This document shows, piece after piece, positions 50-3,042 of a DNA stretch of 22,157 nucleotides (position 1 is the first letter of the stretch; each line of letters begins with the position of its first letter). The notes beneath the pieces are model-generated. The model did not search any database. It was given only the letters and a program-made list of their open reading frames with translations, and was not told the DNA's origin. The position numbers and the translations under genes are program-made. Source of the stretch: a virus; IMG/VR virus record IMGVR_UViG_3300032322_000170, positions 1-22,157 of that record, one strand, 5' to 3'.

Positions 50-646
50 ATGATAGAAGCTCAATTACTAGCACTTGGTATTGACGGCAAATGGCTTGAG
101 CCACTTAATGAAACCTTTGAAAAGTACCAAATAAACACTCCTACAAGACAAGCGGCTTTTATTGGGCAATGCAGTCATGAGTCCAATAATTTTAAGGTGC
201 TTCAAGAGAACTTAAATTACAGCGCAAAAGGCTTGATGGCTACATGGCCCAGCCGCTTTCCTGATTTAAATACCGCAATGATTTATGAACGACAGCCTGA
301 AAAAATAGCCAACAAAGTTTATGGCGGCAGGGCTGATTTAGGCAATACAGAAGATGGTGATGGGTGGCGTTTTTGCGGAAAAGGGCTTATACAGCTTACA
401 GGGCGATCAAATGTGACTACTTGTGGCAATGCCCTTGGACAACCATTTGCAGAGCATCCTGAGCTTCTTTTAGAGCCTAAATGGGCGGCTATGAGTGCTG
501 GCTGGTTTTGGAACAAAAAAGGTCTAAATGCCCTGGCTGACAATGAAGATTGGACTACATTGACCAAGCGAATCAATGGTGGAACAATCGGTCTTGATGA
601 TCGAATTAACAAAATCCATAAAGCTATGGATATTTTAGGGGCTTAA
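50..646 (+). CDS. GH19 endolysin (chitinase-like lysozyme)
   Basis: 198 aa. A single glycoside hydrolase family 19 domain fills the whole protein, as in phage endolysins of this family that cleave the glycan strands of peptidoglycan at lysis. The conserved SHES segment (residues 42-45) places the likely catalytic acid at Glu44. A second acidic residue, Glu53, precedes the NYSA stretch (56-59). The family core with KGLIQLTGR is at residues 111-119. No signal peptide or membrane segment is visible, so export would need a holin, and none is recognisable nearby. No good Shine-Dalgarno site precedes the ATG, but no better start is in frame. The stop lies two bases before the next gene. Bases 1-49 hold no gene; a short palindrome (TTGTTATCAACAA) sits at 14-26. 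The family call is confident; the exact bond cleaved is inferred. Confidence 0.93.
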   Translation: MIEAQLLALGIDGKWLEPLNETFEKYQINTPTRQAAFIGQCSHESNNFKVLQENLNYSAKGLMATWPSRFPDLNTAMIYERQPEKIANKVYGGRADLGNTEDGDGWRFCGKGLIQLTGRSNVTTCGNALGQPFAEHPELLLEPKWAAMSAGWFWNKKGLNALADNEDWTTLTKRINGGTIGLDDRINKIHKAMDILGA

Positions 647-648
647 AA

Positions 649-798
649 ATGGCAGATAAATTTTACAAAGAAACAAAAGCACAGCAAAAGCGTGAAGATA
701 AAGAAATGATTACTTTGCGTAACGGCATTTATGAAGTTAAAAGAGAGCTACGCAAGCATGAGAAAGAGCCTATGGATAAGGCTCATCCTAAAAAGTAA
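649..798 (+). CDS. Small highly charged protein, 49 aa
   Basis: Starts two bases after the endolysin stop, so it is probably translationally coupled to it. The product is rich in Lys and Glu (KREDKEM, ELRKHEKE, ending HPKK) and is predicted to be mostly helical and soluble. It has no membrane segment, so it is not an obvious holin or spanin despite its place beside the lysin. I do not recognise the family. Its TAA stop falls within the outer arm of the inverted repeat at 795-803. It is kept as a gene because of tight spacing, an ATG start and codon use like its neighbour. Confidence 0.6.
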   Translation: MADKFYKETKAQQKREDKEMITLRNGIYEVKRELRKHEKEPMDKAHPKK

Positions 799-890
799 CG
801 GCATCAATTTGGCAACTGCTGGCTGTAAGGTGGAAAGCCGAAAAAATCCTTACTTGTTGCATCCTTGATTGTCGGCTTAACTGCCGTTAC
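795..890. ncRNA. Candidate structured RNA element with possible pseudoknot between convergent genes
   Basis: Directly visible pairings: a 9-bp perfect outer stem (795-803 with 882-890), TCAA/TTGA (804-807 with 865-868), GCAAC/GTTGC (812-816 with 856-860), GTAAGG/CCTTAC (825-830 with 848-853), and AAGCCGA/TCGGCTT (835-841 with 872-878). The last joins the inner loop to the strand outside that hairpin, giving a pseudoknot. A competing hairpin GGCT/AGCC (821-824 with 836-839) is also possible. Neither strand shows a clear U-tract, so it is not a standard intrinsic terminator. It fills the only gap between the rightward lysis genes and the leftward early operon, and both flanking stop codons lie in the outer stem. 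Function is unknown: candidates are a 3'-end stabiliser, a bidirectional termination or processing site, or a small RNA. Confidence 0.4.
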
Positions 891-1075
891 ATAAGCTGAA
901 TTCTAGGAGTATCTTCCCTAACCCAGTCAAGGGCCGCTTGCCAGGATTGTGTCCAAAGGACTAAAGCAGTAGATCCTTCATAAAAGAAGTCAGGATACAA
1001 GGCAAAGAAAGCCTCCTCACAAGCATCAGAAGGAACTTTCATATTGCCAGCAAAAGGTATATTTTCTTCTGTCAT
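887..1075 (-). CDS. Hypothetical protein, 62 aa
   Basis: Last gene of the leftward operon. The protein is acidic and aromatic, with PDFFYEG and a Trp-rich WTQSWQAALDWV stretch, and has no signal peptide or membrane helix. Its start codon overlaps the stop of the upstream gene by 4 bases (ATGA type), which supports translational coupling. A weak AAGG lies about 13 bases upstream of the ATG. The TAA stop is inside the 3' arm of the inverted repeat at 882-890. I do not recognise the family. Confidence 0.6.
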   Translation of the reverse strand: MTEENIPFAGNMKVPSDACEEAFFALYPDFFYEGSTALVLWTQSWQAALDWVREDTPRIQLM

Positions 1076-1847: not shown

Positions 1848-2498
1848 TTAACTGCCTTTCATTAAATTAACTTCTACTGCCACTTCATCAAGGAACTTCT
1901 TAACTTCTGCTTCCATTTCAGCGATGTAATCATCTTCACGCATTACTCGCTTAATGTATAACTGGCTTTTTTCAGGCATCCTTGGATCGTAAGATACAAA
2001 ATCACACCAGCTTCTGCCTGTGCAAGCCATTTGCGCTTGCATTTGAATGTAATACTTATTGGGCGGCCCATCTTCTTTAATATAAGACCAATGTGTTGCT
2101 GAATTAGGGCATTTAATCTCCACAAGCCCATCATCGTTTACAAGCCCATCAGGACTTGCTCCAAACCATAGAATTGATGGGTGATCCACAAATGCCACTT
2201 GATCTACAAAGTTGCCTGAAGCTACTTCATAGGCCACTCTAGCTTGGGCCTCATGGTCTTTGCCATATTGCATAGCATCGTTGGTAAAGCTTTCCTCAAC
2301 AATGCCAGTTACCCTTTGGATAGCCAGCTTGATTAAGTAATTGCCCCTAGAAGCCGATACGCCAGTTTTTGTCTTAGCCAATACATCAGCTACGCCACTA
2401 GCCGTTACTTTGCCCAAGCGTATCTTTAGCCATTCCTCAGAGCCTTGCTCAATGCCGTTATATGCGGCAACTCTGTCCTCTGTTGTCCAGGTTGTCAT
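1848..2498 (-). CDS. YqaJ-family viral recombinase, lambda-exonuclease-like
   Basis: 216 aa, usual length for the family. A PD-(D/E)xK alkaline exonuclease that resects double-stranded DNA ends 5' to 3' to leave single strands for the annealing partner. The N-terminal GSEEWLKIRLGKVTAS (residues 19-34) is the family signature. The catalytic set is SPD with Asp117, then EIK with Glu127 and Lys129. The YYIQMQAQM helix (149-157) is the conserved Gln-rich motif after the active site. The start has an AAGGAG site and overlaps the stop of the annealing-protein gene by 4 bases (ATGA), a pairing typical of phage Red-like modules. Confident family assignment. Confidence 0.93.
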   Translation of the reverse strand: MTTWTTEDRVAAYNGIEQGSEEWLKIRLGKVTASGVADVLAKTKTGVSASRGNYLIKLAIQRVTGIVEESFTNDAMQYGKDHEAQARVAYEVASGNFVDQVAFVDHPSILWFGASPDGLVNDDGLVEIKCPNSATHWSYIKEDGPPNKYYIQMQAQMACTGRSWCDFVSYDPRMPEKSQLYIKRVMREDDYIAEMEAEVKKFLDEVAVEVNLMKGS

Positions 2499-3031
2499 GC
2501 TAATTGCTCCTTTTTGGCATCTTTAGCGTTAGCGATTAATTGAACTGCGTTTTTGTCTTTACTTAAAGCGGCATACGCTTTGCCATAAACGCCTTTAAGT
2601 TCATCAATGGTTGTGCAGTTATTGATTGAATCTATCCATAAATTAGATTCAGCGGTCAAATCTACTGGTTCTTCTGTTGGCAAATCTTCACCAGCGTAAA
2701 TGTATAGGCCAATACCAAACAGGCTGATACACTTGGTAAGGCAGCGCATCATGGCTGTATTGACATCCATTGCATTTGGATTAGGTATAGCTTTGTTCCG
2801 AGAATCTATAACAGGCATTTGGCAAGTCATGGATTTGCCCATCGCATGAATTGTGCAAAAAACCATTACAGATTCGTTAAAGTAAACAGGATCACCAAAT
2901 GTCCAGGTTGCCGATGGATCGTTTTGTAGAAGCTGGTCTACGGCCCATGTCCAAGAAAGGTAAGTAAATTTACCCTTCTTTTCTGTATGTTCGTTTACAT
3001 TGATTGTGCGTAATTCGTTAAATGTTTTCAT
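2495..3031 (-). CDS. Single-strand annealing protein, Sak3/DUF1071 type
   Basis: 178 aa from the ATG at 3031; an adjacent ATG at 3034 and a GTG at 3037 are also in frame. The AAGGA site suits 3031 or 3034. The N-terminal half carries FTYLSWTWAVDQLL (about residues 22-35), and the middle has the MDVNTAMMRCLTKCISLFGIGLYIYAGEDLP region. Both are characteristic of the DUF1071 family, described as Sak3-type annealing proteins. These coat exonuclease-generated single strands and promote annealing. The C-terminal 55 residues look like a helical extension. Coupled to the YqaJ gene downstream. The family call rests on recognised motifs. Confidence 0.85.
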   Translation of the reverse strand: MKTFNELRTINVNEHTEKKGKFTYLSWTWAVDQLLQNDPSATWTFGDPVYFNESVMVFCTIHAMGKSMTCQMPVIDSRNKAIPNPNAMDVNTAMMRCLTKCISLFGIGLYIYAGEDLPTEEPVDLTAESNLWIDSINNCTTIDELKGVYGKAYAALSKDKNAVQLIANAKDAKKEQLA

Positions 3032-3042
3032 CATCACTTTCC

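Follow-up and report, generated by a model that had tools for sequence, protein, structure and literature searches.

A conserved pseudoknotted fold at the end of a phage recombination operon, apparently a divergent relative of the Rhizobiales small RNA Atu_At1

Positions 795–890 of the viral DNA analyzed here (the window, a virus record of 22,157 bases that encodes a P22-like portal and coat protein) form a real, tightly conserved pseudoknotted fold. Comparison of models and structures points to this element as a divergent phage-borne relative of Atu_At1 (RF02496) and hence to a new, phage-wide branch of an uncharacterized small RNA (sRNA) family. As to what the element does, the best explanation, advanced here tentatively, is that it could be a trans-acting small RNA released from the tail of the mRNA of a minus-strand operon.

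Relatives of both flanking genes were gathered from viral contigs, many of which carry the element while some close relatives lack it. Pattern scans yielded 63 distinct elements with the window type of pseudoknot and 40 with other pseudoknot sequences. Two alignments were used, A3 (40 related elements aligned on the minus strand) and A6 (a diverse set of 37 sequences), along with two models, R1, derived from window-type phage copies alone, and R2, derived from a more diverse phage set; the pseudoknot was used in neither model. The features of the window that are relevant to the element are as follows (P1, P2, P2b and P3 are the helices).

50–646, plus strand: glycoside hydrolase 19 (lysozyme-like) gene, convergent (PF00182, 2.8e-6)
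649–798, plus strand: 49-aa ORF, convergent, with its stop within P1 (sequence reading)
766–784, minus strand: weak terminator-like hairpin (GAGCCUUAUCCAUAGGCUC and UUUCUCAU) just downstream on the RNA strand, inside the 49-aa ORF
795–890, minus strand (read from 890 to 795): complete pseudoknotted RNA domain of about 96 nt (pairing in 40 homologs; R1 score of 106.7 bits, the window sequence itself being among those from which R1 was built)
882–890, minus strand: P1 5′ arm, GUAACGGCA, pairs with 795–803 and contains the stop UAA (889–887) of the 62-aa gene
872–878, minus strand: pseudoknot 5′ strand, AAGCCGA, pairs with 835–841 (100% paired in A3 and A6)
865–868, minus strand: P2 5′ strand, UCAA (partner UUGA, 804–807)
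861–864, minus strand: conserved internal loop, GGAU, opposite CAAA 808–811; invariant in A3 and A6, partly by imposition since AAGGATG belonged to the search patterns
856–860, minus strand: P2b 5′ strand, GCAAC, pairs with 812–816; covaries
848–853, minus strand: P3 5′ strand, GUAAGG, pairs with 825–830; 6 of 6 pairs covary
842–846, minus strand: conserved U-run in the P3 loop ahead of the pseudoknot strand; UUUU does not vary in A3 or A6 and also occurs in Atu_At1
835–841, minus strand: pseudoknot 3′ strand, UCGGCUU, inside the P3 hairpin loop, pairs with 872–878
825–830, minus strand: P3 3′ strand, CCUUAC, pairs with GUAAGG (848–853)
817–824, minus strand: variable, one-sided linker of 8 nt, with a hairpin instead in L016, L057, L199, L244 and in Atu_At1
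812–816, minus strand: P2b 3′ strand, GUUGC, pairs with GCAAC (856–860)
808–811, minus strand: conserved internal loop, CAAA, with little or no variation in A3 and A6; CAAATT was demanded by the relaxed search
804–807, minus strand: P2 3′ strand, UUGA (partner UCAA, 865–868)
795–803, minus strand: P1 3′ arm, UGCCGUUAC, pairs with 882–890; covaries
887–1075, minus strand: 62-aa gene immediately preceding the RNA on its strand, at the end of a minus-strand run (ORF)
1848–3037, minus strand: genes for a YqaJ-type exonuclease and a Sak single-strand annealing protein (PF09588, 1.4e-28; PF06378, 1.2e-39)

All the pairings described in the initial annotation, including the 7-bp pseudoknot between 835–841 and 872–878, are found by direct reading of the sequence; on the plus strand, the 9-bp outer stem P1 reads GUAACGGCA (795–803) paired with UGCCGUUAC (882–890). 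The architecture comprises this closing stem and a rod of P2, P2b and P3 that is bendable at the linker, with the hairpin loop of P3 folding back to the strand between P1 and P2. The extra hairpin found at the linker in L016, L057, L199 and L244 is AT-rich and produces a three-way junction like that in Atu_At1.

The folding energy of the window sequence alone is weak to unremarkable (z = −1.66 on the plus strand and −2.34 on the minus strand), and it is the homologs that take the fold far beyond chance. In the 40 homologs, 99.0% of the pair cells of the five helices form, compared with 78.8% in shuffled alignments; covariation reaches 0.560 versus 0.168 (0 of 500 shuffles), and double changes occur at 18 of the 28 pairs. 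The corresponding values for the diverse A6 set are 94.9% versus 61.3% of the pair cells and 0.843 versus 0.188 for covariation. The pseudoknot is fully Watson–Crick paired in each of the 37 sequences of A6 although its sequence turns over almost completely, with 3–4 Watson–Crick types at five of the seven pairs. The outer two pairs of the short helix P2 also covary, the relatives showing AGAA/UUCU, ACAA/UUGU, CAAA/UUUG and UGAA/UUCA. A structured RNA with a genuine pseudoknot, which the initial annotation had proposed subject to covariation in homologous loci, is thus strongly supported by exactly this evidence.

The pseudoknot was also recovered by a relaxed search that demanded GTTAA, a C, AAGGATG and CAAATT and left the pseudoknot free. 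A perfect 7-bp pseudoknot partner in the correct place was present in 59 of the 80 matches, compared with 2.9% for shuffled 7-mers; the 21 matches without a 6–7-bp partner were set aside. The relatives with variant pseudoknots in this set carry 15 different pseudoknot sequences, and even within the window's own lineage, AAGCCGA/UCGGCUU is replaced by AACGGGG/CCCCGUU (L055). Loop bases demanded by the search pattern do not count as independent evidence of conservation; the segments UUUU and UUUC lie outside the pattern and are invariant in this set.

The stop codons of both flanking genes lie within the outer stem, as had been noticed from the window alone: TAA at 796–798 for the plus-strand ORF 649–798 and TAA at 889–887 for the minus-strand ORF 887–1075. 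The arms of P1 are complementary, and UAA occurs at both ends; P1 in the window lineage starts with UAAC and ends with GUUA, providing a stop codon for each strand, which explains why both stops fall in the stem. The accompanying claim that both 3′ ends run into the fold holds for the window but not as a general rule, given that other lineages have the element inside or ahead of an operon.

The initial annotation left the strand open; wobble pairs and same-strand stop codons located just before or inside the fold make the minus strand the probable one. Outside P3, the minus-strand reading gives 13 G·U versus 4 A·C pairs, 8 of the G·U pairs falling at a single position at the top of P1; an earlier count over 40 sequences (13 G·U versus 6 A·C) was not decisive alone, and all such counts come from few sequences that are partly related. 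Of 102 distinct phage elements, 80 have a same-strand ORF (40 aa or longer) whose stop lies between −19 and +2 of the GUUAA start, compared with 7% for random placement, and the genes so placed upstream are unrelated to one another across lineages. A plus-strand RNA is less likely, judging from the same wobble pairs and gene context.

In the window, the genes for the YqaJ exonuclease, Sak and the 62-aa protein (the latter without a Pfam or PHROG match) belong to the same minus-strand run. Intrinsic terminators resemble the element at the end of this run in having a GC-rich closing stem past the stop codon, but the immediately following U-tract that defines them is absent after P1 on both strands of the window, the only U-run on the minus strand being U846–U841 within the hairpin loop, and the conserved pseudoknot is a further difference. 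The view that this is not a plain terminator therefore stands. The weak terminator-like hairpin at 766–784 lies within conserved coding sequence (EPMDKAHP) of the 49-aa ORF and is present in 10 window-type relatives.

The element occurs once in each of 12 large phage contigs, in gene neighborhoods that fall into several groups. In group A, to which the window belongs, it is the last element of the recombination operon, and lysis genes converge on it; in group B, it ends a minus-strand run that includes a weakly glycosyltransferase-like gene and also converges with lysis genes. The order in group C is exonuclease (phrog_69), a further gene, the element and DNA polymerase A; the further gene has a weak nucleotidyltransferase match in PHROGs, and its labeling as DUF2815 was rejected as unsupported by Pfam. 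In group D, the element follows an ORF of 43–60 aa and precedes a terS-like gene, which has no Pfam or PHROG match and is itself followed by a gene similar to large terminases. Several of the ORFs preceding the element in this group (L199, L210, L215, L244, L245, L247 and L248) end in ..FFKxAKxK or similar. Single cases include an element after a phrog_298-type exonuclease (L341), one with an HNH gene on one side and, on the other, a small gene followed by a 444-aa gene (L198), and one ahead of a phrog_69 exonuclease (L336). The neighbor genes thus differ; exonuclease, DNA polymerase and other DNA-metabolism genes recur without being universal. In several lineages, a same-strand gene starts 7–63 nt past the element. 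Empty sites, where the 49-aa ORF abuts the 62-aa gene, were found in the close relatives L084, L024, L028, L012 and L007, which implies that the element is dispensable in at least some phages.

DNA BLAST of the element sequences against named phages and plasmids gave chance matches only, and the element is absent from the stretches searched in the nearest annotated phages of each lineage (MW202674, MW202520, MW202483, DSL-LC04, HTVC027P and HTVC023P). The nearest named relatives are of freshwater character, and it is on these, not on the window's own sample records, that the description of the element as coming from a lake is based. A scan of 658 genomes with R2 (321 of the Rhodoferax MAG class and 337 of the Beijerinckiaceae MAG class), under strict filters able to lose weak matches, returned only two already known contigs, which are phage-like contigs within metagenome bins; four additional matches with E-values of about 0.003–0.009 were discarded, their number being equal to the chance expectation and those displayed lacking the pseudoknot.

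The initial annotation did not match the element to a known class. This holds for the window copy, which matches no family in Rfam 15 and does not match Atu_At1 even at an E-value of 10, but not for other branches, which match Atu_At1 over its full length, nor for the models, since those built from phage copies find Atu_At1 loci. Atu_At1 is classed by Rfam as an sRNA gene of Rhizobiales, with the reference copy on plasmid At of A. fabrum C58; literature searches produced no description of its function or of the phage element. Full-length matches on the operon strand were obtained for L204 of group C (24.1 bits), L253 of group D (22.0 bits) and L336 (29.8 bits), all below the gathering threshold of 60 bits, by which the window copy also falls outside the family; L304, at 83.5 bits the only phage contig to pass the threshold, is a true Atu_At1 member. 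In the opposite direction, R1 matches the plasmid At locus of A. fabrum C58 (L274; 26.8 bits, E = 2.7e-5), although it finds only some Atu_At1 members: genome-wide it misses most chromosomal copies, and it fails to find them in most genomes with one. R2 matches the Atu_At1 loci L275 of Sinorhizobium (38.3 bits, E = 1.9e-6), L274 (37.7 bits), L279 (32.7 bits) and L304 (30.6 bits). The shared architecture is therefore detectable in both model directions.

The likeness extends to structural detail. The helices of Atu_At1 follow the same order as in the phage elements (P1, pseudoknot strand, P2, P2b, P3), and the two have in common GU(U/C)AA followed by five variable bases and C, UUUU and UUUC separated by variable bases and flanking the pseudoknot strand, GGAUG in some Atu_At1 members, and an optional extra hairpin at the P2b/P3 junction. 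A 7-bp pseudoknot is present at the same place in 21 Rhizobiales Atu_At1 members (among L274–L295), with 97.2% of the cells paired and compensatory changes; the Rfam structure line lacks this pseudoknot and draws a local hairpin where the pseudoknot strand sits. Four phage contigs carry the element in its Atu_At1 type. In one of these (L305), it lies downstream of a phrog_69 exonuclease and ahead of a DNA polymerase, the same order as in group C, and in two others (L306 and L307), it follows a gene and precedes an exonuclease and a polymerase processivity factor. Graded intermediates, together with a gene order common to both types in one phage lineage, link the phage elements to Atu_At1; given also the matches in both model directions and the common pseudoknot, we treat the two as one superfamily.

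Apart from score (no match for the window copy and 22–30 bits for other phage branches, against a gathering threshold of 60), the two differ in setting. Rhizobiales copies are intergenic and free-standing, with varied neighbors and without the placement at an ORF stop seen in phages, whose copies follow an operon stop codon. Upstream of the Rhizobiales copies lies a stress-type −35 sequence: GGAAC occurs 30–40 nt upstream in 16 of the 22 copies (L274–L295) compared with 8% of background windows, and GGAAC-N14–18-CGTT in 6 of 22 compared with 0.4%. We take this spaced motif to be the EcfG/RpoE2 general stress promoter. Three copies (L274, L276 and L279) lie near annotated DNA-repair genes (ligD, Ku and UdgX), and near another (L294) there is an ORF that resembles, by eye only, a 3-methyladenine glycosylase.

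The analysis establishes the structure with its pseudoknot, the occurrence of one copy per contig tested, a location immediately behind a stop codon and the relationship to Atu_At1, and it supports the minus strand. A domain that is found free-standing, at operon ends, between cistrons and before unrelated genes, once per contig, is best explained as a trans-acting RNA, tentative as this assignment is; that downstream genes are unrelated or absent also favors action in trans over action in cis. The RNA would be made as the tail of the mRNA transcribed from the recombination operon on the minus strand (Sak, YqaJ exonuclease, small genes and the 62-aa gene) and would fold as soon as the final ribosome has cleared the stop codon within P1. 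It might then be released from the mRNA, persist as a stable small RNA and act in trans through its invariant unpaired bases (GGAU/CAAA and UUUU), displayed to a conserved partner.

The main rival, rather unlikely in our estimate, is a cis-acting mRNA element that would block 3′-to-5′ exonucleases or set a processing boundary, so that the genes before and after it are expressed differently. The location of most phage copies directly after a stop codon would suit such a role, as would their placement where operon ends converge (groups A and B) or in the space separating cistrons (groups C and D) and the weak terminator-like hairpin that follows in 10 window-type relatives. Boundaries of this kind are many, however, yet each of the 12 contigs has a single copy; the upstream genes are unrelated, and the Rhizobiales copies stand alone instead of following an ORF in this way. 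The conserved unpaired bases, partly imposed by the search patterns as they are, also suggest more than bulk stability.

The same-strand genes that start 7–63 nt past the element in several lineages leave room for a different cis role, namely, a ligand-sensing, riboswitch-like leader of the following gene, which we consider improbable. Conserved loops within freely covarying helices resemble an aptamer, and the genes in question encode DNA polymerase, a terS-like protein, a clamp or an exonuclease; but these belong to no common family, and no same-strand gene follows in the window or elsewhere in groups A and B.

Still less probable is a new self-cleaving ribozyme. Several known ribozyme classes are found in phage intergenic regions, and the small self-cleaving ribozymes (twister, pistol, hatchet and hammerhead) are of similar size and contain pseudoknots. 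The phage element has the corresponding attributes (a compact core that contains a pseudoknot, loop bases that are conserved, helices that vary freely and an intergenic location) but shares no evident core with these four classes, and no known self-cleaving ribozyme or riboswitch among the Rfam 15 covariance models matches it; moreover, no cleavage site could be inferred, and in Rfam, Atu_At1 stands as an intact sRNA gene. The RNAs of type III toxin-antitoxin systems (ToxI and kin) are likewise short and pseudoknotted and are sometimes found in phages; these are tandem repeats beside a toxin gene, in contrast to the window element, which is a single unit without an Rfam match, flanked by the lysozyme gene, the 49-aa and 62-aa ORFs, Sak and YqaJ, with no recognized toxin gene adjacent.

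An element acting only as DNA (a folded single strand, or a packaging or recombination site) is very unlikely. It would account for the single copy per contig tested, the presence or absence among close relatives and the scarcity of wobble pairs, of which the pseudoknot has none; but the few wobbles lean to one strand, the orientation follows transcription and stop codons, the genome position varies between lineages, and the relatives in Rhizobiales form a family annotated as sRNA and preceded by promoter-like sequence. Folding by chance in an AT-rich gap, for which only the modest single-sequence z values (−1.7 and −2.3) speak, can be dismissed in view of the pairing and covariation in homologs, the pseudoknot partners in the relaxed search and the stop-codon placement.

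The element may tentatively be seen as a representative of a large, previously undescribed class of phage RNAs, with fixed loops and freely varying helices around a 7-bp pseudoknot. Such a module would move to sites just after stop codons, often in DNA recombination and replication operons, would carry out a single conserved biochemical function, be it catalysis, the binding of a ligand or host-factor capture, and would have been taken into the stress response of Rhizobiales as Atu_At1. The link to the phage elements widens an isolated, uncharacterized sRNA family of soil bacteria to a far larger class whose structural core is defined and whose members are mostly in phages, and it shows that the curated structure of Atu_At1 lacks the central pseudoknot of the family. 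The defined structure offers precise mutants and a model RNA for functional questions; should the RNA act in trans, phages would have in it an effector directed at a conserved proteobacterial target.
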